From assembly GCF_000190735.1 (NCBI RefSeq), contig NC_015177.1:3596001-3660000 (forward strand): a DNA stretch of 64,000 nucleotides. Direction: 5' to 3'. Both the position numbers and the translations under genes were made by a program. The notes beneath the pieces are model-generated. The model had not been told where the DNA came from. It saw nothing but the letters and a program-made list of their open reading frames with translations, and did not search any database. The stretch's first letter is position 1. Every line of letters begins with the position of its first letter. This DNA comes from Pseudopedobacter saltans DSM 12145 (GTDB lineage: Bacteria; Bacteroidota; Bacteroidia; Sphingobacteriales; Sphingobacteriaceae). Positions 35,422 to 49,407 of the stretch are shown here, piece after piece.

Positions 35422-35488
35422 GGTTTTTGCTATAAATGGAAATGCAAATAGTTCTTTGCTAAATGTTATTCTCATAAATTTATGTATT

Positions 35489-38400
35489 GTGAAGATTAAG
35501 CTTTTTTATATCGTTTCATTGTATTTTCTCCTTAATCCCGGATTTGTTTTGGGGCAGGAGAATCCAAACTTTCATTTTAAGAAACTACAGGTTACTGATG
35601 GGCTTTCGGAGAATGCGGTCTATTGTATTTTACAGGATACAGATGGATTTATGTGGTTTGGTACTAAAGATGGGTTAAATCGTTTCGATGGCAGTTCATT
35701 TAGAGTCTATCAGCATCAGTTTGGAAAAAAGCAATCTATCGGAAATAACTTTATAAGAAGTATCGCCCAAAAAAATAAAAGTCAATTGTATATAGGAACA
35801 GATGTAGGCCTTTATATAATGGACAAAATAAAAGAGACATTTTCAAAGCTAAACATCAAAGCTAGTGATAACTCAATTATCTCTTCTGCAATAAACTCTT
35901 TGTTGGTTGACAAAGATGGAAATTTGTGGATAGCGACTATGGCTCAAGGTATTTATGTTTATGAAAGTAAAAGTGGCAGGCTAAATAAAGTAGTTATTGA
36001 AAATGTGGATCTGGGATTGAATGCTTCCTGGTCTATCATACAAGATAAATCTGGGACAATTTGGGCAGGTACCAGATTGGGACTGCTCAGATATAACGCG
36101 GTCTCATCAAAATTTGAAATTGTTCCTTCTTTATTTAGCAAAGCTGAGAATTCTGACAACGAAGTGTTATCAATACTTGAGGACAACAAGGGGAATCTAT
36201 GGCTGGGAACTTGGTCTAATGGGGTGAGATACTACAACAAACAGTCAGAAGAATATACGTCTTTTCTTAATAATAAGCCGGGAGCCAGTTATATAACTCA
36301 TATCCGAGCAATTTTTCAATACACAGAAAAATCTCTGCTTATAGGATCTGATGATGGCTTGTATCTTTTCAACCTGGAAAGTAATGTTCCCAAAAGACTG
36401 GATATCCCACAATTTAAATACAGTCTAAGCGATCAGAATGTATATTCTATAGCAAAAGATAAAGAAGGTGGAGTTTGGATTGGAACTTACTTTGGAGGGG
36501 TAAACTATCTAAATCCCGCTTTGCTAACAATAGAAACTTATTATCCTGATTTATTACACGGGTTTCTTTCTGGAAAGGCAGTTAGTCAGTTTTGTGAAGA
36601 TCCTAGAGGAAATATATGGATAGCGACAGAAGATGGAGGCTTAAACTATTTTGACGTAAAAACAAAGCTCGTTACTCAGCCTGTAAAGACTAGTTATCAT
36701 AACACACACGCATTACTTTTAGATGGAGAAAATCTGTGGATAGGAACCTTTTCACGCGGGATCGACATTTATAATACAAAAACCGGAAAGTTGGTTAATT
36801 ACAGATTTAAATCAAATGATCAAAATACCATCAACGACGACTGTATTTTTTCGATTTATAAAACGAAGGCTGGAGAGATTTATGTAGGAACGCCGGTTGG
36901 CTTGAATAAGTTCAATAGAGTAAGCCGGACGTTTGAAAGGATAAAGGAGATAAACAGCTTTATTTATGATATAAAAGAAGACGATGCAGGAGATTTATGG
37001 TTGGCAAGTTATGGCCACGGTGCAATTAAGTTGGACAATAAGCAAAATAGATGGGTTTTTTATGATAAGATAAAAAAGAATGATCCGATAGTAGGGGCTA
37101 AATTAACGAGTATTTATATAGATAGTCAACGCCGGCTTATTTTTTCCAGCGAAGGAAGGGGAATTTTTATTTACAATAGAAAGAATGACGGTTTCAGAAA
37201 CATTTCAGAAGCCAACGGACTTCCCAACAGCGTTATATATGGAGTTTTAGACGATCCAAATGGAAATTTATGGTTAAGTAGTAATAAAGGGCTTATTTGT
37301 TTAAATACAGATTCTCCGAATAAATTCAAGCTTTATGATATCGAAAATGGATTGCAAAGTAACCAGTTCAATTATAAATCTACTTATAAATCAAGATCGG
37401 GGAAATTTTATTTTGGCGGAATCAATGGTTTTAGCTCTTTCTATCCGCAAGATATAGATCAGATAAAAAATCCGATATCGCCAGCTGTTGCAATAACCAG
37501 AATAAGTTTGTTAGGGAATTCCGACCCAGAATTGGAAAAAGAAATACAGACTAAGCTGAATAAAAAAGAAACGGTGAAGTTAAAATTTAATACATCTTCG
37601 TTTACGGTGTCTTTTGTAAGTTTAAGTTTTATTTCTCAATCAAAAAATCAATACGCGTATAAATTAGAAGGAGCGGACGCCGGATGGACATACACCGGGA
37701 ATAGCAAAAATGTAACCTACGTAAATTTATCTCCTGGCAAATACACTTTTAAAGTTAAAGCCTCAAACAATGATGGTTTGTGGAATGAAGAGGGGAGTGA
37801 AATTTCCATTGAAATATTACCCCCTTTCTGGTTGTCTTTACCGGCAAAGATATTTTATACGCTACTTGTAGCTTCATTGCTTTATTTGCTGATTCGCTTT
37901 TATATAAACCGAAATAAAGTGAGACAGCTCCGACAGCTGGAAACTTTTAAAGCAGAGCAGGAAACAAAATCCTTTAAATCAAAAATAGAATTCTTTACAA
38001 CGATAGCACATGAAATTCGTACGCCCCTAAGTTTGATTAATGCGCCATTGGAAGAAATCATTTCCAAACAGGAAGGCAGTGAACAAACAAAACAGAACTT
38101 ATCTGTTATAGAGAGAAATTGTGACAGGTTAAGCGTCCTGATCAATCAATTATTGGATTTTAGAAAAATGGATTCGACGGAATATAAGCTGAATCCGGAG
38201 CGCATAGATATTAGAGAATTTATTACCGAGATGCATGAACGATTTAGAAAATCAGCGCAAAGCAAAAAGCTTTTACTGGATCTGAAATTGCCGAAAGAAA
38301 AAAAGCTATTTGTCGTTTCTGATTTAGATGCGCTAACTAAAATAGTAGGCAATTTATTGACAAATGCATTGAAGTTTGCCAATAATCGGGTAATTCTAAA

Positions 38401-39502
38401 ATTAACCCATAAACAAGATAAATCGTATGTGGTTAGTGTAGAGGATGATGGGCAGGGAATACCAGACGAATATAAAAACCTTGTATTTGATCCATTTTAT
38501 CAGGTACAATCGGGAAAAGATAACGTTGGCACCGGAATAGGGCTTTCTTTGGTTAAACACTTGTCGACTCTTTTGAAAGGTAAAGTCGAGCTAATGGACG
38601 CGAATAAAGGAGGAACGATATTTCATGTCTCTTTCTCAGATTTAGAGCCTATTAAGGAAGAACCGGAAAAAGCTGTTAAAGAAGCCGATTCAATAGATCT
38701 GGCTATTTCTTCTCCTGATGTAATAGAAGAAAGAATACTGGTTGTTGATGACAATCCGGATATGACAAGCTTTATCAGCAGCTGCTTATCTAACGACTAT
38801 ATTGTAGAGACTGCAGAAGATGCTCAAAGTGCACTTTCTTTACTTGAGGAAAAGCATTTTAATTTGATTATATCCGATATCATGATGCCCGGAGTTGATG
38901 GTATTTCCTTCGTCAAAAAGCTAAAATCAGATGTTAGCTATTCGCATATTCCGGTTATACTGTTATCTGCAAAAATTGAAAACTCTACCAAAGCAGAAGG
39001 CTTAATGTCTGGTGCAGATGCATTTATTGAAAAGCCTTTCTCGACAATATACCTGAAAGCGCAGATTGCCAGTTTACTAAAAAACAGGAGAGCAATTTTA
39101 GATCTTTTCAATAGATCTCCTTTAGCATCGTATTCTTCTTTAGCCACAAATAAAAGCGACGAATATTTTCTAAATAAACTTAATGAAGAAATAGAACTTC
39201 ATATTGCGGATGAAAGTTTTTCTGTAGAATCGTTAACGGATATTTTAGGAATAAGCCGTTCGAATTTGCAACGTAAGCTAAAATCCATTAGCGGTTATTC
39301 TCCGGGAGATTATCTTCGAAATTACCGGTTGAAGAAAGCATGCCTACTTCTTTTAGAGTCGGACAGTAGAATAAATGAAGTAGCTTTTAGGGTCGGTTTT
39401 AATTCGGCCTCTTATTTTACCAAAGCATTTTATAAGTGTTACAATATGTCTCCGAAAGAATTTATCAACCATCATCTAAAAACATCGAAGAAGACAGGGT
39501 AA
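35489..39502 (+). CDS. Hybrid two-component sensor/regulator (HTCS)
   Basis: 1337 residues from GTG 35489, which gives a good signal peptide (MKIKLFYIVSLYF... ending VLGQ); a TTG at 35456 is also in frame and no ATG fits. Order: signal, about 14 periplasmic propeller repeats (GNLWIATM, GTIWAGTRLG, GNLWLGTW), Y_Y_Y domain, membrane helix (near 37860), HisKA with phospho-acceptor His in AHEIRTP (codon 38009), HATPase with DDGQGIPDEY and GTGIGLSLV, receiver with Asp in ISDIMMPG (codon 38876) and Lys in EKPF, and AraC HTH with ISRSNLQRKL and INEVAFRVGF. All catalytic residues are present. It should sense an oligosaccharide and activate the divergent susC operon. Confidence 0.95.
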   Translation: MKIKLFYIVSLYFLLNPGFVLGQENPNFHFKKLQVTDGLSENAVYCILQDTDGFMWFGTKDGLNRFDGSSFRVYQHQFGKKQSIGNNFIRSIAQKNKSQLYIGTDVGLYIMDKIKETFSKLNIKASDNSIISSAINSLLVDKDGNLWIATMAQGIYVYESKSGRLNKVVIENVDLGLNASWSIIQDKSGTIWAGTRLGLLRYNAVSSKFEIVPSLFSKAENSDNEVLSILEDNKGNLWLGTWSNGVRYYNKQSEEYTSFLNNKPGASYITHIRAIFQYTEKSLLIGSDDGLYLFNLESNVPKRLDIPQFKYSLSDQNVYSIAKDKEGGVWIGTYFGGVNYLNPALLTIETYYPDLLHGFLSGKAVSQFCEDPRGNIWIATEDGGLNYFDVKTKLVTQPVKTSYHNTHALLLDGENLWIGTFSRGIDIYNTKTGKLVNYRFKSNDQNTINDDCIFSIYKTKAGEIYVGTPVGLNKFNRVSRTFERIKEINSFIYDIKEDDAGDLWLASYGHGAIKLDNKQNRWVFYDKIKKNDPIVGAKLTSIYIDSQRRLIFSSEGRGIFIYNRKNDGFRNISEANGLPNSVIYGVLDDPNGNLWLSSNKGLICLNTDSPNKFKLYDIENGLQSNQFNYKSTYKSRSGKFYFGGINGFSSFYPQDIDQIKNPISPAVAITRISLLGNSDPELEKEIQTKLNKKETVKLKFNTSSFTVSFVSLSFISQSKNQYAYKLEGADAGWTYTGNSKNVTYVNLSPGKYTFKVKASNNDGLWNEEGSEISIEILPPFWLSLPAKIFYTLLVASLLYLLIRFYINRNKVRQLRQLETFKAEQETKSFKSKIEFFTTIAHEIRTPLSLINAPLEEIISKQEGSEQTKQNLSVIERNCDRLSVLINQLLDFRKMDSTEYKLNPERIDIREFITEMHERFRKSAQSKKLLLDLKLPKEKKLFVVSDLDALTKIVGNLLTNALKFANNRVILKLTHKQDKSYVVSVEDDGQGIPDEYKNLVFDPFYQVQSGKDNVGTGIGLSLVKHLSTLLKGKVELMDANKGGTIFHVSFSDLEPIKEEPEKAVKEADSIDLAISSPDVIEERILVVDDNPDMTSFISSCLSNDYIVETAEDAQSALSLLEEKHFNLIISDIMMPGVDGISFVKKLKSDVSYSHIPVILLSAKIENSTKAEGLMSGADAFIEKPFSTIYLKAQIASLLKNRRAILDLFNRSPLASYSSLATNKSDEYFLNKLNEEIELHIADESFSVESLTDILGISRSNLQRKLKSISGYSPGDYLRNYRLKKACLLLLESDSRINEVAFRVGFNSASYFTKAFYKCYNMSPKEFINHHLKTSKKTG

Positions 39503-39547: not shown

Positions 39548-40414
39548 ATGATGAAAAGGTATTTGTTTATTGTTGCATTGCTAATGCCATTATTTCTGTT
39601 CGCTCAGGACCGTCCCGAAATTATATTGAAAAGAAACACTAAAGGGCTTGTTACATTTAAGGTGTCTTTAGTAAACAAAGGACCTTTGGAAATTGATTGG
39701 GGGAATGGAGAGAAAAAATCATATGATGTTAATGATGAATCTAAAATTAACGACGCAACGGTTATTAGCGAAGAGGTTAAAAAGAGTACGACAATAAAGA
39801 TCTATGCAAAGGGAATCAAGGTTTTTTCTTGTTTTGATCAATTTCTTACTTTTTTAGATGTGAGTGCAGCGCCAGATTTAGTTACTTTGGATTGCGGGAA
39901 AAACATTTTAAGAAATATTAACGTAAGTGCGAATAAGAATTTAAGAAGCCTGATGGCGAGCGATGTTAGACTTAGCGTATTAGATGTATCTGCAAATAAA
40001 AGATTGACTTATCTAAATTGTTCTTACAATTATTTAAAAACAATAAACCTTACAAATAATATCAATCTTTCTAACCTCAACATTTCAGATAATTTATTAG
40101 ATCAACTTGATTTAAGTAAACAAAAATCGCTTCGAACTTTAAACTTAAGCGGAAATAGATTTAGACAATTAGAAGTTAAAGGGTTTACTGAAATAAAATT
40201 TTTGGATGTAACCTATAATAAACTTGATGCTTGTGCATTAAACGAGCTTTATGCGCATTTACCAAACAATGTTGTTGAAGAACAAGCACCGGAGAAAAAG
40301 ATAAATCTGTTGATCGCTAATAACAGAGGACTTGTTTCGAGTGAAACAAGTATCGCTGTTCAGAAAGGGTGGAATGTGGACGTCGAAGGAAAAGGATCAG
40401 GTAATTGTTTGTAA
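39548..40414 (+). CDS. Secreted leucine-rich-repeat protein
   Basis: 288 residues (an in-frame second ATG follows at once). Signal peptide ending LFLFAQ. Residues 25-105 are beta-rich, with an IDWGNGEKKSYDV stretch like the internalin/PKD-like Bacteroidota N-domains. Residues 110-230 hold about six leucine-rich repeats of 21-23 residues with the pattern L-x-x-L-D-V-S-x-N-x-x-L, for example LSVLDVSANKRLTYLNCS. The tail has a lone Cys pair. LRR proteins bind proteins or glycans. It lies 45 bases after the HTCS and 8 bases before the 7TM receptor gene, so joint expression is likely; a sensory partner role is speculation. Confidence 0.7.
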   Translation: MMKRYLFIVALLMPLFLFAQDRPEIILKRNTKGLVTFKVSLVNKGPLEIDWGNGEKKSYDVNDESKINDATVISEEVKKSTTIKIYAKGIKVFSCFDQFLTFLDVSAAPDLVTLDCGKNILRNINVSANKNLRSLMASDVRLSVLDVSANKRLTYLNCSYNYLKTINLTNNINLSNLNISDNLLDQLDLSKQKSLRTLNLSGNRFRQLEVKGFTEIKFLDVTYNKLDACALNELYAHLPNNVVEEQAPEKKINLLIANNRGLVSSETSIAVQKGWNVDVEGKGSGNCL

Positions 40415-40422
40415 ATCATAAT

Positions 40423-42345
40423 ATGTTTCAGAATAAAAGAGCAATTTTTGCGCTTTTTGTATTTGTTTCAGTTTTGTTTTCAAGAGCCTTTGCCCAGCAG
40501 GACTTTAAAGTCAATTCTGGGTTTGAAGAACATGTGTTTGTTAAAGACGAACTTTTTATATATGAAGACAAAACAGGTAAGCTTGGAATAAATGATATCC
40601 TTTCTGAAACGGGTGATACATTATTTAAAGCAAATAGAGATCATTATCCAAGAAACCGAAATAAAGAGTCTTATTATTGGGTTAGAGTAAATATAAACGT
40701 ACTTAAAAATTTAAATGGTAAATATGTCTTTGAGTTCTACGATCAGACAACAGAATTCATTGAAGCATATATTCCAAATGAAAAAGGCAATTATGTAAAA
40801 CGAGTAGCAGGAGCTCAACGCCCTTTTAACGAACGCCTTTTAGGGCACAAAAACTATCATTTCAATTTATTAAATCTAAAATCTGGAGAACAAACTTGCT
40901 ATTTCCGAGTAAAATCCAGCGCATATATAAACATCATTATAGTTCTTCGTTCGATTGAACGGGTACTTAACTATGCAATTTCGGAATATTTCATGTTTGG
41001 TTTGTTTTATGGAATGCTTTTGATTTTTTGTTTGCACAATATGCTGATGTACATCGCCATAAAGCGAAAGGAATATTTGATATATGTAGTTTATCTGGTT
41101 TTTGTTGCTCTTTTCGAAATGTCATCTGATGGTGTTGCTTTTCAATTTATATGGCCAAACTTGCCCAGCTTAAATCCATATGCTACAGGAATTTCCTTAT
41201 ACTGTATGGGGATTTCGGCTTTGGTTTTCATGCTTCATCTTTTACATGTGAAAGTGAAAGCTCCGGGGTTTTATAAGCTAACAATTTTTGTTATTGCATT
41301 TCGTACAATATTTTTTCTGATTTGTCTCTTCATCAAACCGGAATGGTTTATTTATAAATTTATCGAATTTATTCCACTTAGTTTATGCTTTATAATAGGG
41401 ATAAATATTCTTGTAAAGGGATATAAGCCTGCAAGGTTTTTTGTTCTCGCATACTCGATATTAATGGCGGGATTTGCCGTTCGAGTTTTAATGGTTTTGG
41501 GGATTGCTCGCTTTCTGCCCGGTTATGTTACTTACTACAGTTTGAGTGTGTGCTTTATTTTGGAGATGGTCTTTCTTTCATTTTCTATTGGTGATCAGGT
41601 GCGGATTTTAAAGAAAAGAAAGGTAAGGGCGCAGGATAAGGTAATTCAGCAAATGAAAATTAATACAAGTTTAAAAGATAAGGTTAATAGGGAGCTTGAA
41701 GAAAAAGTTGCGGACCGAACTCTGTTATTGAAGGAACAGAAAGAAGAATTACTTAAACACAAGGCAATTATTGAAGCACAAAATGAGACGTTGTTAGCAG
41801 TTAATCAGCAACTGGAAGCACAAAAGGAAGAAATAGCTAATATGAATGCTTTGTTAGAGAAAGATAACGAAGTATTAAAAATCAATATAGAAGAAGTTAC
41901 AGATGCAAGGATTCATTCCAGGGACATCGGTTTTAATGAATTTGTTGTAAAATATCCTGATAAGGAATCCTGTTATAAATTTCTATCAGAAATAAAATGG
42001 AGGGATAAGGAATATCTTTGTAAGCGCTGCGATAATGATGCTTTTTATCCCGGGAAATCTCCGTTTGGGAGACGATGCAGCAAATGCAATTATGATGAAT
42101 CTGTTTTAAGCGGAACAATATTCCAAAATAGTCGGATCCCTATCAACAAAGCTTTTTACATTCTGTTATTGATTCATAAAAATAAAGGAGAAATATCATC
42201 TTATCAATTATCCAAAAAAACGGGAATTAGACAAAGTACTTGTTGGCAGTATGCAAGTAACTATAAAGACATAATTGCCCAAAGGAACGCTGTGTTAAAA
42301 AAGACAGAGCAATCCGATTGGATGGCCTACGTATTGGTAGAATAG
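40423..42345 (+). CDS. 7TM-DISM receptor fused to transposase-type zinc ribbon and HTH
   Basis: 640 residues from ATG 40423; an in-frame TTG at 40405 overlaps the LRR gene and is less likely. Order: signal peptide 1-25; 7TMR-DISMED2-like extracellular domain 30-170 (SYYWVRVNINVL, FEFYDQTTEFIEAYIP); seven membrane helices 185-392; coiled coil about 400-495; zinc ribbon with Cys533, Cys536, Cys552 and Cys555; then SVLSGTIFQ-like text and a helix-turn-helix 571-620 (SSYQLSKKTGIRQSTCWQY). The last part matches the Zn_Tnp_IS1595 module and its HTH. The DDE nuclease domain is absent and no kinase or cyclase is present. I infer a membrane-tethered DNA-binding regulator sensing a sugar. A strong terminator follows. 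Confidence 0.85.
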   Translation: MFQNKRAIFALFVFVSVLFSRAFAQQDFKVNSGFEEHVFVKDELFIYEDKTGKLGINDILSETGDTLFKANRDHYPRNRNKESYYWVRVNINVLKNLNGKYVFEFYDQTTEFIEAYIPNEKGNYVKRVAGAQRPFNERLLGHKNYHFNLLNLKSGEQTCYFRVKSSAYINIIIVLRSIERVLNYAISEYFMFGLFYGMLLIFCLHNMLMYIAIKRKEYLIYVVYLVFVALFEMSSDGVAFQFIWPNLPSLNPYATGISLYCMGISALVFMLHLLHVKVKAPGFYKLTIFVIAFRTIFFLICLFIKPEWFIYKFIEFIPLSLCFIIGINILVKGYKPARFFVLAYSILMAGFAVRVLMVLGIARFLPGYVTYYSLSVCFILEMVFLSFSIGDQVRILKKRKVRAQDKVIQQMKINTSLKDKVNRELEEKVADRTLLLKEQKEELLKHKAIIEAQNETLLAVNQQLEAQKEEIANMNALLEKDNEVLKINIEEVTDARIHSRDIGFNEFVVKYPDKESCYKFLSEIKWRDKEYLCKRCDNDAFYPGKSPFGRRCSKCNYDESVLSGTIFQNSRIPINKAFYILLLIHKNKGEISSYQLSKKTGIRQSTCWQYASNYKDIIAQRNAVLKKTEQSDWMAYVLVE

Positions 42346-42372: not shown

Positions 42373-42417
42373 AAAATGCGAAGTCTTTAACGTATCATAA
42401 GACTTCGCATTTTTTGT
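42373..42417 (+). terminator. Strong intrinsic terminator after the sensor block
   Basis: A perfect 15-bp stem, 42373-42387 with 42399-42413, with an 11-base loop, followed by TT after a T-rich stem end. It closes the HTCS-LRR-7TM block and isolates it from the GH2-GH88 genes. Confidence 0.85.
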
Positions 42418-42525
42418 TTGGTAAATGCGTAACCCGCAGATACAGAGTATTAAAAAAAGGATCCTTTCGGGATTAAAGCGTATTGATCTTGTTTTTTAAT
42501 GTGTTGATATATAGTGTTTTATGTT

Positions 42526-42553
42526 TTGTTGTTTCTGTTTTTCGTTAACTTTG
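42526..42553 (+). promoter_or_regulatory. Bacteroidota-type promoter for GH2-GH88
   Basis: TTG at 42526-42528 (within TTTTG), a 17-base spacer, and TAACTTTG at 42546-42553 match the primary sigma consensus TTG-N17-23-TAnnTTTG. It is about 60 bases upstream of the GH2 start. Confidence 0.5.
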
Positions 42554-42614: not shown

Positions 42615-45287
42615 ATGACTGGCAAAAAATATAAAAGCTTTGTCTTTTTACTCGCTTGTTTTCTTTTGTGCTTAAATGTGTTTTCACAAAACAGAAAAGT
42701 AATACCATATAATAGCGGATGGTCGTTCGTTAAAGATTCATCAAATAATTTAAGTTCAATCGTTAATCTCAACAAGCCGTGGCAAAAAGTACGTATTCCG
42801 CATACGTGGAATGCGTACGATGTCATGGATGATACGCCCGGTTATTACAGAGGGACAGGGGTTTATAAAAATACAATTCATCTGAATGATTTAAGTGTTG
42901 GAAAACGAATTTTTCTGCAATTTGAAGCAGCAGGACAAGAGGCGCAACTCCTTATCAACAGGCAACAGATAAAAGATCATAAGGGAGGATATACTCAATT
43001 TATTGCGGAAATAGGCCCGTTTTTACAGAAAGGAAAGGACAACGAAGTAATTCTGATTGTTACAAATAAATTCAATGAAAATCTTCCGCCTTTATCAGCA
43101 GACTTTACATTTTTTGGAGGCTTGTATAGAAAAATCGCTATTATAGAAACAAGCGAAACTTACTTTGAAGATCATAATTTTGGAGCAAATGGAATATATA
43201 TTACTACCCCAAAAGTCGATTCCTCGCAAGCAAAAGTTAATGTTGTTGCTCAAATAAAGAACAGTTCGAACCAACAAAAAGAGCTTAAGCTTAGAAATGC
43301 CATTTATTCGAGAGAAGGGATAGAAATTTCTTTTTCAGAAACCAGGATTCTATTAAAGCAAAATGAAACGAAGCGTTTTGAACAGGCATTGGAAGTCAAA
43401 AATCCGCGACTTTGGAGTCCGCAAAGTCCCAATTTATATCGCCTAAAAACTCAACTAATAGATTCCGATGGAAATGTTTTGGATGAGATTAACAATCCTC
43501 TCGCTTTCAGATGGTATTTTTTTAACGAGGATAAGGTCTTTCTGTTAAACGGAAAGCCCTTAAAACTTATTGGGGCAAGCAGGCATCAGGATTTTAAGAA
43601 TATGGGAAATGCTGTTCCAGACGATTTGCAAATTGAAGATGTAAGTTTACTGAAAGAAATGGGAGGGAATTTTCTTCGTGTTGCGCATTATCCACAGACA
43701 AAATCTGTTTTAGAAGCTTGTGATTCTTTGGGAATAATTACTTCCATTGAAATTCCAATTGTTAATGAAATAACGGAATCGGAAGAATTTACTCAAAATA
43801 GCCTTCATATGCAGCAAGAGATGATCAGGCAATATTACAATCATCCAAGCGTGGTTATTTGGGGGTATATGAATGAAGTTTTACTAAGACCTAAGTTCAA
43901 TAACAATAAAGAACGCCAAAAGATATATTTTGAAAATATTCGGATTCTTGCGCAGAAATTAGAAAACCTGACAAAGAAAGAAGACCCATCGCGTTTTACG
44001 ATGATTGCCCATCATGGTAATTTCAATTTATACAATCAGGTCGGACTGAACCATATTTCTGATATCGTTGGATGGAATCTTTACCCTGGCTGGTATGGTG
44101 GGAAAATAGAAGATTTTGGACGTCAACTGGATCAGATACATAAAGATCTGAAAGAGAAGCCTTTACTGGTTACCGAATATGGAGCGGATGTTGATCCGCG
44201 AATTAATGTTGCAAATCCTATCCGTTTCGATAAAAGTATAGAGTATGGGATTGCATACCACCAGGGCTATATTAAAGACATTTTAAGCCGGCCTTTTGTT
44301 GCAGGGGCAATGGCTTGGAATCTCGCTGATTTTTCTTCGGAAACCAGGGAAGAAACCATGCCGCATATCAATAATAAAGGCTTGCTTACTTTAGACAGAC
44401 AAGCCAAAGATACTTATTGGCTTTATCGGACAAGATTTAATGACAAGCCTATTGTTAAAATTTCCAATTGGATCAACAGAGCCACGGTTTCTGATACAAA
44501 TTTTTCAGTTCAGAGCATTAACGTATATTCCAATTTAAATAAACTAGAACTTTTTGTTAACGATAAAACGGTTGAAGCGGCGACTGTAAATGACAATATT
44601 GCAAACTGGAAAACGACTTTGCTTAATGGCAAAAACAAAGTGTTGGTACGAGGATATTCAAACGGAGGGCAATTATTTGCAGATAGCACAACAATCGTTT
44701 TAAATCTGCTTCCGGCTTCTTTAAAGTCATATGATTTTAGAAAACCGCTATTAATGTCTTTTGGAGATACCAGAAGCTACACCGATACATTAGGTTATGT
44801 TTGGTTGCCCGAAAAGGAGTTTGCCTTTGGTTCGTGGGGATACGTTGGAGGCAAGGCATTATTTCGTGAAAATGCACCCAGACAAAAATACGGAGTAGAT
44901 AAAAATATCATCGGAACCGAAGAAGATCCACTTTACCAAACTCAGCGTATGGGGTTAAACAAATTGATATTTGATGTTCCTCGTGGAACATATCATATAG
45001 AATTTCTTTTTGCAGAATTCAATGACGAACAAACCAAATTACTTTATAACCTAACGGGAAATGAAAATCAGGATGAAAAATGGAATTTATCAGAAAACCT
45101 TTTTGATATCAAGATAAACGGCAAAAGGGTTATTAGAGACCTAAATGTTGCCAAAGAAAGCGGCTATTTTACTGCTTTGCAAAAAAGCATTACTGCTAAA
45201 TCAAAAGCAAAGGGTCTTATAATAGAATTTGATGCCCAAAAAGGAGAACCGCTAATTAATGCAATAAAAATTTCAAAAATCAAATAA
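42615..45287 (+). CDS. GH2-family hydrolase with C-terminal malectin-like domain
   Basis: 890 residues; signal peptide ending NVFSQ. Jelly-roll GH2 N-domain (VRIPHTWNAYDV, YYRGTGVYKN), Ig-like domain and TIM barrel. The acid/base Glu421 is in WGYMNEV and the nucleophile Glu521 in VTEYGAD. After a further Ig-like part, residues 735-890 read as a malectin-like domain (FDIKINGKRVIRDLNVAKESG). Beta-galactosidase or beta-glucuronidase activity is likely. The next gene (GH88) starts at the same base as this stop ends (TAATG), which indicates translational coupling and a shared substrate with a uronic acid. Confidence 0.9.
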   Translation: MTGKKYKSFVFLLACFLLCLNVFSQNRKVIPYNSGWSFVKDSSNNLSSIVNLNKPWQKVRIPHTWNAYDVMDDTPGYYRGTGVYKNTIHLNDLSVGKRIFLQFEAAGQEAQLLINRQQIKDHKGGYTQFIAEIGPFLQKGKDNEVILIVTNKFNENLPPLSADFTFFGGLYRKIAIIETSETYFEDHNFGANGIYITTPKVDSSQAKVNVVAQIKNSSNQQKELKLRNAIYSREGIEISFSETRILLKQNETKRFEQALEVKNPRLWSPQSPNLYRLKTQLIDSDGNVLDEINNPLAFRWYFFNEDKVFLLNGKPLKLIGASRHQDFKNMGNAVPDDLQIEDVSLLKEMGGNFLRVAHYPQTKSVLEACDSLGIITSIEIPIVNEITESEEFTQNSLHMQQEMIRQYYNHPSVVIWGYMNEVLLRPKFNNNKERQKIYFENIRILAQKLENLTKKEDPSRFTMIAHHGNFNLYNQVGLNHISDIVGWNLYPGWYGGKIEDFGRQLDQIHKDLKEKPLLVTEYGADVDPRINVANPIRFDKSIEYGIAYHQGYIKDILSRPFVAGAMAWNLADFSSETREETMPHINNKGLLTLDRQAKDTYWLYRTRFNDKPIVKISNWINRATVSDTNFSVQSINVYSNLNKLELFVNDKTVEAATVNDNIANWKTTLLNGKNKVLVRGYSNGGQLFADSTTIVLNLLPASLKSYDFRKPLLMSFGDTRSYTDTLGYVWLPEKEFAFGSWGYVGGKALFRENAPRQKYGVDKNIIGTEEDPLYQTQRMGLNKLIFDVPRGTYHIEFLFAEFNDEQTKLLYNLTGNENQDEKWNLSENLFDIKINGKRVIRDLNVAKESGYFTALQKSITAKSKAKGLIIEFDAQKGEPLINAIKISKIK

Positions 45288-46554: not shown

Positions 46555-49407
46555 ATGCTGACAATAAATCCGAAGAAAGCTCTAATTTTAATCGTGTTGG
46601 TGATTAGTTATGCTTCTGTTTTAGCTATTAAACCATTAATATCACCACAGATAATAAATTACAGCAGCGAGGCTTATCGTGGAGGGACCCAAAACTGGGG
46701 CATTGATCAGGATAAACAGGGTATAATTTATATTGCCAATAATGATGGATTATTGGCTTTTAACGGACATTATTGGCATATCTATAAAACGCCAAATTTA
46801 ACCTCTGTGCGTTCGGTTAAAGTACAGGAAAACAAGATTTTCGTAGGTGCACAAGATGAGTTCGGGTACTTTGAACCAAACACGAGCGGAACACTTGAAT
46901 ATCATTCTCTTGTACATTTGGTGCCTAAGGAAAATAAAAGATTTGCAGATATATGGAGTATCTCGTTTTACGAAGGCGGCGTACTTTTCAGAGCAAAAGA
47001 GGTAATCTTTTATTATAATAAAAAGTCCATTAAAGTGTTCAAGCCTGCTTTCGAATGGGAATACATGGATCAGGTAAAAAACAGAGTTTTGGCACATTCC
47101 AAAAAAATAGGTCTGGTTTATTTTGATGGGAATAAATGGGAGCAGTTTGGAAAAGAACCTATATTGGCAGAAAGTGTAATTAGTTCCGTAATACACTTAG
47201 GTAATGAAGAATATCTTATTTCAACATTAAAAGACGGCTTTTTTTCTTTGAATGCCGGGAAGCTAAGTCCAAAATTTACCGAAATAAATACTGCTGAAAA
47301 TCGGGTATATACAGGAACGCGAATAGGAGATAATCGTTTTGCTTATGGAACAACATCCGGCGGAGTGTATGTAATTGACATCAATGGAGAAATTTTAAAT
47401 CATTATTCTTATAGCGGAGGCTTGCAGGCAAATAGTAACCGGGCCTTGTTTTTGGATCAGGGGAAAAATCTTTGGATGGCGCAAAACGACGGAATAGATT
47501 ATCTGGCGATTAACAGTTCTGTCAAACCGATTTATTTAGATCAATCTAAAAGAGTAACGAGTTATGCCATTCGTTATTTCAATGGAAATTTATTTGTTGG
47601 TACTTCAAACGGGATTTATGCAACAGCTTTAGACACTAAAGGGCAGGAAGATTTAAGTTTGGCTTATGGTGATTTTCAATATATAAAAAGTTCCGAAGGA
47701 CAGGTTTGGAGTCTTTCACAGTTTTCCAATAAATTATTGGTAGGTCATGAAGATGGCAGTTTTTACTTCGATAATAATAATCTGGCACCCATTTATTCCG
47801 GAATAGGAACCTGGAATTTGAATTCTTCTCTTAAAATTGATGATATCGTTGTCGGAACTTATTTCGGTTTGCGAAGAATAGGTTCGCATGACGGTAAATT
47901 TTTTGATAAAGGGATTATACCAGGACTTGAAGAGTCTTTACGTTTCATCGTTCTGGATAAAAGAAGTATTTGGGGATCGCACCCCTACAGAGGAATTTAT
48001 AGAGTCTTTGTAGATTATGAAAAGAATGCCGTCAAAAACTATAAGATTTACAATAAGAATTCCGGTTTACCCTCAAATCTGTATAATTACGTTTATGAGG
48101 TAGATGATAAACCTGTTATTGCTACCGAAAAAGGAATTTATCAATACAACGAAGTCAAGGATGCGTTCGAGCCTTATACCAAGCTGGCTTTGCTTAGTAA
48201 GATGTCCATCCAATATCTGAAACAAGATACCGAAGGTAATATCTGGTTTGTAACCAATAGAAAAGTTGGAGTGGTTGATTTTTCATCCGTCCCAAAGATT
48301 TATTACTTCCCACAATTGGATGGTAAAACAGTCGGCGGATTTGAACATATCTATGCGTTAAACAAAGACAACATATTTATAGCCGGAAATAAGGGGATTT
48401 ACCACATCAATTATCAAAAATATAGACAAAGTATACAGAAACCGAATGTTTTAATTAGTCAAATCCGGGTGCCGTCCAGTAAGGATACCGTAATTTATGG
48501 AGGATATCAGAACGGCGAACAAATTTCCCATACATTGAGGAATAGTTTTAACTCACTCCATTTTGAATTTTCATCAACCTTGTTTGATTATAAGGAAAGT
48601 ATAGAGTACAGTTACTTGTTGGAAGGATTAGACAAAGATTGGTCTAATTGGAGTAATAAAACAGAAAAGGATTATACTAATCTTTCACCGGGGAAATATG
48701 TGTTTAAAATAAAATCCAGAAATGGAATAGATAACGAATCAGACCTTGTTTCCTATAAATTTACTATCCTTCCAAAATGGTATCAGACGAAATTTATGTA
48801 TGCAGCATACCTGTTTTTGTTGGTAGCAATAATTTACATTGGTTACAAGTGGCAGGAAAGAAATCATAAAAAAGCTCGTGAAAAGCTTCGCTATTTACAT
48901 CAATTGGAATTAGACCGAAACGAGAAGGAAATCGTGAGGTTGAAAAATGAAAAATTAGAATCGGAGATAGATTTTAAAAATAGGGAGCTCTCTTCTATGA
49001 CCATGAATTTAGTACAAAGGGGGAAGGTGCTAACGAAGATCAAAGACGTAATATCCACTTTAGCACAAAGCGAACGGATCGAAGAAAACTCCACTAATTT
49101 AAGGCATTTGGTAAGGCTTATAAAAGAAGTTGAAAAAGGGAATCAGGATTGGGATAACTTTACAGCGCATTTTAACAATGTTAATTCTGATTTTTTTAAC
49201 AAGTTAAAAGAAAAATTTCCGGATTTAACACCTAATGAGCTTAAGCTTTGTGCTTTCATAAAAATGAATTTGAGTTCGAAAGAGATTGCCCAATTGATGA
49301 ATATAACCATAAAAGCCGTAGAAGTTGGTAGATATCGACTAAGGAAAAAACTGCAAATTTCTTCGGAAACAAATTTGTATGACTTCCTGATTCAGATAAC
49401 CAAATAG
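46555..49407 (+). CDS. Propeller/Y_Y_Y membrane regulator with LuxR-type HTH
   Basis: 950 residues. N-terminal signal/anchor, a periplasmic propeller (about 35-630) with blades such as NWGIDQDKQGIIYIANNDG and GNIWFVTNRK, a Y_Y_Y domain (about 660-740, YSYLLEGLDKDWSNWS, LSPGKYVFKIKSRNG), a membrane helix around 745-766, a coiled coil, and a LuxR-type HTH at about 890-945 (LTPNELKLCAFIKMNLSSKEIAQLM, split by IT). There is no kinase or receiver domain, so it looks like a one-component membrane-bound transcription factor. It may control GH2-GH88 upstream or the glucan enzymes downstream. Confidence 0.88.
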   Translation: MLTINPKKALILIVLVISYASVLAIKPLISPQIINYSSEAYRGGTQNWGIDQDKQGIIYIANNDGLLAFNGHYWHIYKTPNLTSVRSVKVQENKIFVGAQDEFGYFEPNTSGTLEYHSLVHLVPKENKRFADIWSISFYEGGVLFRAKEVIFYYNKKSIKVFKPAFEWEYMDQVKNRVLAHSKKIGLVYFDGNKWEQFGKEPILAESVISSVIHLGNEEYLISTLKDGFFSLNAGKLSPKFTEINTAENRVYTGTRIGDNRFAYGTTSGGVYVIDINGEILNHYSYSGGLQANSNRALFLDQGKNLWMAQNDGIDYLAINSSVKPIYLDQSKRVTSYAIRYFNGNLFVGTSNGIYATALDTKGQEDLSLAYGDFQYIKSSEGQVWSLSQFSNKLLVGHEDGSFYFDNNNLAPIYSGIGTWNLNSSLKIDDIVVGTYFGLRRIGSHDGKFFDKGIIPGLEESLRFIVLDKRSIWGSHPYRGIYRVFVDYEKNAVKNYKIYNKNSGLPSNLYNYVYEVDDKPVIATEKGIYQYNEVKDAFEPYTKLALLSKMSIQYLKQDTEGNIWFVTNRKVGVVDFSSVPKIYYFPQLDGKTVGGFEHIYALNKDNIFIAGNKGIYHINYQKYRQSIQKPNVLISQIRVPSSKDTVIYGGYQNGEQISHTLRNSFNSLHFEFSSTLFDYKESIEYSYLLEGLDKDWSNWSNKTEKDYTNLSPGKYVFKIKSRNGIDNESDLVSYKFTILPKWYQTKFMYAAYLFLLVAIIYIGYKWQERNHKKAREKLRYLHQLELDRNEKEIVRLKNEKLESEIDFKNRELSSMTMNLVQRGKVLTKIKDVISTLAQSERIEENSTNLRHLVRLIKEVEKGNQDWDNFTAHFNNVNSDFFNKLKEKFPDLTPNELKLCAFIKMNLSSKEIAQLMNITIKAVEVGRYRLRKKLQISSETNLYDFLIQITK

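Follow-up and report, generated by a model that had tools for sequence, protein, structure and literature searches.

Described members of the 7TMR-DISM receptors usually, if not obligatorily, end in signalling enzymes. The polysaccharide loci of Bacteroidota are known for hybrid two-component systems and SusR-type regulators, which have a membrane sensor and a DNA-binding end and lie beside SusC/SusD; to our knowledge, the regulators of such loci in environmental Bacteroidota are mostly uncharacterised. Fusion of a 7TMR-DISM receptor to a C-terminal DNA-binding domain is in print for the ChiS family (a passage of PMC8092284), and signalling helices are described as occasionally linking sensory and HTH domains (a passage of PMC1592074).

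The window, by which we mean the whole stretch of 64,000 nucleotides of Pseudopedobacter saltans DSM 12145 that was analysed, contains a receptor gene with the following parts.

40423 to 42345, + strand: receptor-regulator gene, 640 aa, in the order DISMED2, 7TM-DISM, coiled coil, zinc ribbon, HTH (Pfam, alignment, AlphaFold).
40549 to 40947, + strand: 7TMR-DISMED2 extracellular sensor, residues 43-175 (Pfam E 2e-25, 89.7 bits, cut-off 22).
40984 to 41595, + strand: 7TMR-DISM_7TM seven-helix membrane domain, residues 188-391 (Pfam E 1.4e-36, 126.8 bits, cut-off 29).
41596 to 41910, + strand: long helix and hinge, residues 392-496 (AlphaFold model, invariant residues; coiled coil by reading).
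41959 to 42093, + strand: IS1595-type zinc ribbon, residues 513-557 (Pfam Zn_ribbon_IS1595; C533, C536, C552 and C555 invariant in 57/57).
42142 to 42297, + strand: HTH, residues 574-625 (alignment, model).
42232 to 42234, + strand: CAA codon for Q604, the residue that in family f44 covaries with one base of the operator (alignment, gap comparison).

The frame at 40423-42345 (+) is an uninterrupted open reading frame of 640 aa, and its earlier description, the sequence-only reading, as one continuous frame with a DISMED2 sensor and seven helices was borne out by Pfam. The same reading had seen an IS1595-like zinc ribbon and HTH at the C-terminus and had proposed a domain search of this part. 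The domain reading was right overall, and the ribbon match was weak: Zn_ribbon_IS1595 matched the whole window protein at E 7e-4 (20.0 bits) and the C-terminal piece alone at E 5e-5 (23.5 bits), both below the Pfam cut-off of 25.4, and reached E ≤ 0.01 in 49 of 57 aligned fusions. The NCBIfam IS1595 transposase model gave a weak match at the HTH (E 0.03 for the whole protein, 0.0033 for the C-terminal piece). The CxxC-15-CxxC spacing that had been noted is present as C533xxC536-15-C552xxC555 and invariant in 57/57 fusions. Likewise confirmed was the absence of enzymatic domains, as no kinase, cyclase, phosphatase or DDE family matched the window protein in Pfam or NCBIfam. HisKA, HATPase, receiver and AraC-type HTH domains were not found in the receptor gene by Pfam; all are present in the gene at 35456-39502.

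An AlphaFold model computed from 57 sequences (mean pLDDT 85; C-terminal module mostly >80) places the sensor first, followed by seven helices that continue into a long helix (367-471), a hinge and the zinc-ribbon/HTH unit. The reading frame stops 15 residues past the last helix of this unit (604-625), and the C-terminal module modelled alone also had a mean pLDDT of 85. The hinge, residues 467-501, is of low confidence (pLDDT<50), and several residues within it are invariant in the 57-row alignment. In a Foldseek search the full-length model resembled the RetS periplasmic domain (3jyb, E 1e-6) and, more weakly, carbohydrate-binding modules; two human proteins, Wntless and TMEM87A, were matched as well, at E of about 2e-4 to 1e-3 and with low TM-scores. 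The full-length profile found 3jyb, the RetS sensor protein (E 0.007), and 9jpe, a histidine kinase (E 0.008), among PDB sequences. For the module alone, Foldseek returned nothing significant among PDB folds (best E 0.46, with Lrp/AsnC-type regulators and NudC among the top matches), and its profile found nothing meaningful among PDB sequences (best E 0.62).

Relatives were sought by a contig scan with the C-terminal 161 residues, and the best 80 of 194 confirmed relatives formed the discovery set. The fusion alignment comprised the window protein and 56 of 69 frames of 600-680 aa, with 13 frames left out. All 57 aligned fusions contain both DISM domains, the seven-helix one at E ≤ 0.01, and the four cysteines, R603, Q604, T606, C607, W608 and W633 are invariant across them. 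Besides the four cysteines, Cys 517 and Cys 607 and the C-terminal Trp 633 are fixed in every aligned fusion. A second full-length copy, 43% identical, is encoded in the window's own genome. When a set of 100 genomes that includes the window's was searched, 13 of the other 99 matched the window protein to residue 618 or beyond. At E≤1e-25 the module was found in 113 of the 301 genomes that represent the window's family, probably Sphingobacteriaceae, in 30 of 80 genomes of family f44 and in 51 of 98 of family f15; a few transposases may be among these matches. Across a sample of the whole phylum, 28 of 395 genomes matched at 1e-15, a count that does include transposases. By these comparisons the predicted receptor is a Bacteroidota family encoded beside polysaccharide-utilization genes.

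The weak Pfam score of the window copy could suggest a chance fusion, a pseudogene or an assembly error that joined a receptor to a transposase remnant. This we regard as practically out of the question: both parts and the invariant cysteines are found in 57/57 aligned full-length fusions, and open frames measure 622-698 aa in all but one case (1101 aa) among the matches listed in the 301-genome scan. The specific concern that a sequencing or assembly error had joined two genes is ruled out by the paralog in the same genome together with the 57/57 intact fusions. The search for the fusion in relatives had been suggested from the sequence alone; with the same architecture in 56 full-length frames of other genomes, the fusion is not an error.

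The gene that follows the receptor gene is co-directional in 64 of 77 loci and encodes a TonB-plug (SusC-type) protein in 49 of the 77; other next genes in these 77 loci encode GH2 enzymes (at least 5) and alginate lyases (4), and the GH2 and malectin families were each matched by 5 of 38 next-gene proteins. In the window, the gene that follows is the proposed target:

42615 to 45287, + strand: GH2 enzyme with a malectin domain (Pfam, ORF).

Beyond it lie a GH88-type gene and, further on, GH3, GH30 and GH5-type genes. A leucine-rich-repeat gene (39548-40414) ends 8 bases before the receptor ATG, and the two possibly share one transcript. Within this sugar region the receptor gene is flanked by two regulators of familiar types, a hybrid two-component system (35456-39502) and a propeller protein with a LuxR-type HTH (46555-49407).

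The gaps after the receptor genes share a candidate operator core, GCGTATYR. Of 61 such gaps, 50 contain it (79 matches, 3.46 per kb). Gaps on the upstream side of the receptor gene have it less often (9 of 73, 0.64 per kb), as do the remaining gaps of these loci (11 of 423, 0.18 per kb), and its density in coding sequence is 0.097 per kb; gaps <40 bp were excluded from the gap counts (16 loci). Dinucleotide shuffling of the 61 gaps (200 runs) gave a mean of 2.17 and a maximum of 6. Clustering at 70% protein identity reduced the loci to 20 clusters; a usable gap was available for 17 of these, and 14 contain GCGTATYR. When the 350 bp preceding genes of 880 aa or more were compared, it was present for 42 of 53 genes directly after the receptor and for 5 of 42 elsewhere, three of these five being divergent neighbours of the receptor. 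With both flanks counted, an intergenic site adjoins the receptor gene in 58 of 80 loci. In the held-out test, 38 of 46 loci were recognised and 8 missed; over 600 bp each, loci <95% identical to the discovery set contained the core in 14 of 20 cases, or in 12 of 18 after removal of one duplicate and the window, counts in which a few matches may fall in the next gene. The exact core is absent from 11 of the 61 gaps, and five Sphingobacterium loci (L034-L038) showed no exact intergenic site in the DNA examined. Gaps after receptor genes, for example at L039, L048, L117 and L220, also hold another repeated word, GCAAACG, frequently in the form GCAAACGTTTGC or GCAAACGATTGC; it was counted in 13 of 29 f44 gaps and 6 of 29 f15 gaps and looks like the operator of another regulator.

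The anatomy of the site was derived from 28 proximal sites, that of the window included, whose distance to the following gene is 115-150 bp. Box A has a G at -9 and AAAGCGTATCAAAA, giving the pattern G.....y.AAGCGTATYR, and is followed by a middle TTATAA and by box B, with TATCAG at +29 and TTATG at +39 (pattern TATCAG...TTATG). A promoter-like TTG-N17-22-TAnnTTT follows 25 of the 28 sites (base-composition shuffles: mean 1.2, max 7), and the stricter TTTG form follows 7 of them (mean 0.5, max 4). More than one direct copy of the operator is present at 23 loci, where 21 of 24 spacings are 77-93 bp. Because the promoter elements come after both boxes and do not overlap them, the putative operator would lie upstream of its promoter, as for an activator. 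The same receptor might instead take another last step, either repressing its targets and releasing the DNA on signal or being cut so that the module works in soluble form. The location of the sites is by itself no proof of activation, residues of low pLDDT (467-501) separate the long helix from the module, and a stand-alone module of 137 aa (L122) exists; against this, the hinge stretch holds several invariant residues, and promoter elements that follow both boxes in the proximal sites are what is expected of an activator. We therefore judge repression or cleavage unlikely, and prefer a receptor that most likely activates its targets and would bind DNA while it stays in the membrane.

The corresponding elements of the window itself are listed here.

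42390 to 42397, + strand: possible degenerate upstream copy of the core (ACGTATCA), 88 bp before box A, found by eye.
42469 to 42489, + strand: candidate operator box A (GGGATTAAAGCGTATTGATCT) with core GCGTATTG at 42478-42485.
42508 to 42523, + strand: weak resemblance to box B (TATATAGTGTTTTATG), at a distance from box A that exceeds the one in relatives by 2 bp.
42525 to 42553, + strand: Bacteroidota-type promoter match TTTG-N17-TAACTTTG, the sole match in the window.

The promoter match is weak by itself, as 0.72 matches are expected in the window by chance. A full position weight matrix of the operator reached a score of 8 nowhere in the window; at the window site a poor box B, displaced by 2 bp, leaves it silent. 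The gap of the paralog in the same genome contains ACGTATTA with a good box B and scores 22.8. Over the whole genome of the window there is no surplus of box A (5 sites compared with 6 in the reversed control). The window site is thus imperfect, and the case for the window gene therefore rests on its family. A terminator-like hairpin (42375-42411) follows the receptor gene, and its loop holds ACGTATCA, the degenerate operator core.

Within that family, site and module go together at the level of whole genomes. The two-part operator WAGCGTATYR-N21-TATCAG was found in 38 of 301 family genomes, at 40 sites in total, and the reversed pattern in 0 of 301. It is present in 37 of 113 module-bearing genomes versus 1 of 188 module-less ones (Fisher p 6e-17, calculated over related genomes that are not independent); the operator and module scans covered the same genomes. 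Among the matches listed, 29 of the 40 sites lie ≤3 kb from a module. Eight of the 11 remaining sites are intergenic and directly before SusC (4) or GH30 (4) genes; another precedes a GH92 gene, and the last two fall within coding sequence, one of them belonging to the sole module-less genome with a site. The distant sites speak against the word being simply part of an inherited block.

Further evidence comes from one base of the operator and residue 604 of the HTH in families f44 (29 loci, L240 not included) and f15 (29 of 32 loci, with L242, L243 and L259 missing). The unchanged core AAGCGTAT occurs in 7 of 29 f44 gaps (base-composition shuffles: mean 0.35, max 2), and TGTG-N-AAGYGTATA, a pattern made after some of these gaps had been viewed, in 12 of 29 (mean 0.05, max 1). 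When the f44 loci are sorted by residue 604, WAGYGTA is followed by T in 14 of 17 occurrences for Gln, by C in 7/7 for Arg and by A in 2/2 for Pro; with a looser pattern, A is found in 6/6 Pro loci. By sequence comparison, one base of the candidate operator is thus shown to change with HTH residue 604 in f44 (Gln-T, Arg-C, Pro-A). Gln-adenine and Arg-guanine, read on the facing strand, are textbook contacts. In the discovery set, where 79 of 80 proteins have Gln, T follows WAGYGTA in 74 of 85 occurrences in gaps after the receptor versus 51 of 96 in other gaps, and AAGYGTAT in the f44 and f15 gaps marks 13 of 17 Gln loci versus 1 of 41 others (p 1e-8). The Arg proteins of f44 are 70-95% identical to one another, and the Arg and the Pro loci may each represent one inherited change within a clade. 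An exception is the Gln locus L230 of f44, which has C. In f15, no C follows WAGYGTA at 15 loci with R604, so the rule is not universal; a motif was sought in the f15 gaps and not found, and the exact core is present in only 2 of 29, at L241 and, on the opposite strand, at L246. Window-type modules are found in both families, at L214 in an f44 genome (E 9e-71) and at L241 in an f15 genome (E 9e-62). L214 carries the window family's type of site, and L241 the exact core and a variant, CCGTATCA, with TATCAG.

These comparisons also bear on whether GCGTATYR belongs to another regulator of the sugar loci, with the zinc-ribbon/HTH part of the receptor serving in protein interaction or as a structural element. 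The hybrid two-component system (35456-39502) and the LuxR-type protein (46555-49407) are close by, the residue 604 rule fails in f15, and the link to the operator is drawn from sequence. Yet the presence of the site tracks the module across 301 genomes, it accompanies the module on another sensor (L076) and window-type modules in two other families (L214, L241), and its base changes with residue 604 in f44, which makes this alternative very improbable.

Taken together, the data favour, with a probability of about 85%, a window receptor that would act as a one-component membrane transcription factor binding box A and box B before polysaccharide-utilization promoters. The DNA-binding output regulating sugar-use genes that had been proposed from the sequence alone is thus supported, at the level of comparative sequence analysis, by the operator, the co-occurrence of site and module, the distant sites and the covariation in f44. 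The periplasmic DISMED2 domain and the seven helices would sense a signal, probably a sugar, and the long helix would pass the state of the dimer to the cytoplasmic module. This module, akin to that of IS1595 elements, would then bind both boxes just upstream of the promoter. The usual target would be the gene adjoining the receptor, joined in some relatives by distant SusC or GH30 genes.

Where the module came from was addressed with a midpoint-rooted tree of 47 modules. Receptor modules, the stand-alone protein L122 (1197-1607, 137 aa, Zn_ribbon_IS1595 over the cut-off) and a module on a propeller sensor form one group (93/97), nested among modules of IS1595-like transposases. With support slightly short of the star threshold and a root placed at the midpoint, the tree makes a single origin of the receptor modules likely and no more. 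The propeller sensor, L076 of Desertivirga arenae (Reg_prop E 1e-65, Y_Y_Y 1e-16, Zn_ribbon_IS1595 2e-5), lies a few kilobases from a 7TM fusion of the same genome, and the two modules are close in the tree; its locus carries the GCGTATYR site too, and it is the only such case among the matches listed in the 301-genome scan. The C-terminal Trp tail of L122 resembles that of the receptors. One genome, G252, encodes about ten diverged transposase-like proteins of ~310 aa (L150, L151, L163-L167) whose module closely resembles that of the receptor; DDE_Tnp_IS1595 is matched by L150, and because its usual second catalytic Asp reads Asn by eye, some of these proteins may have been tamed. As a source of the operator we considered the inverted repeats that flank a related element, of which G195 has two copies, and rejected them, their GAGGTCAGTA core being unlike box A; TCAGT is common to these repeats and box B, possibly by chance.

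The wider picture, which we hold somewhat less firmly than the reading of the window receptor itself and still favour, is that the module with which a transposase recognises its ends was domesticated, perhaps in a single event, and turned into an exchangeable output domain of membrane sensors, namely 7TM-DISM receptors and, in one genome, a Reg_prop/Y_Y_Y propeller sensor. It would read a AAGCGTAT-type operator from the membrane, control sugar loci in cis and, in some genomes, in trans and follow a residue 604 code (Gln-T, Arg-C, Pro-A) in at least one family. If this is true, the receptors, their operator and some of the genes under their control would become known together for the polysaccharide loci of environmental Bacteroidota, a transposase-type DNA reader would form the output end of a seven-helix receptor, and a correspondence between one residue and one base would be open to direct testing by gel shift.

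Several known systems share parts of this design. The sequence-only reading knew of no such design; this stood for the zinc-ribbon fusion, of which no description was found in open-licence PMC (mostly best-ranked matches), and did not stand for the general arrangement, since a 7TMR-DISM receptor with another DNA-binding domain is in print in the ChiS family (a passage of PMC8092284). The zinc-ribbon fusion itself is widespread. The window receptor likewise joins 7TMR-DISM to a C-terminal DNA-binding domain. Compared by description, the ChiS domain is a helix-sheet-helix fold and that of the window a C4 zinc ribbon with HTH; the ChiS-family fusion is from another phylum, and section 10 of PMC8092284 gives no operator for it. 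Relative to 7TMR-DISM receptors at large (PF07695 with PF07696), the window protein shares both the sensor and the seven-helix domain, arranged alike, and ends in the zinc-ribbon/HTH module in place of a cytoplasmic signalling enzyme (Pfam, NCBIfam), whereas two other DISM proteins of its genome end in HisKA and HATPase_c and are ordinary histidine kinases. Like IS1595-family transposases, which have an N-terminal zinc ribbon and HTH, it has a zinc ribbon and an HTH, but it lacks the DDE nuclease and is fused to a receptor. As in hybrid two-component and SusR-type regulators, a membrane sensor with a predicted DNA-binding end is encoded beside sugar genes; in contrast to them, the window protein has no phosphotransfer domains, and its DNA-binding domain and sensor are different. 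The receptor fusion is therefore real and conserved and, because a 7TMR-DISM receptor with another DNA-binding domain is described in the cited passage on ChiS, it is a variation on membrane one-component regulators rather than a new category.
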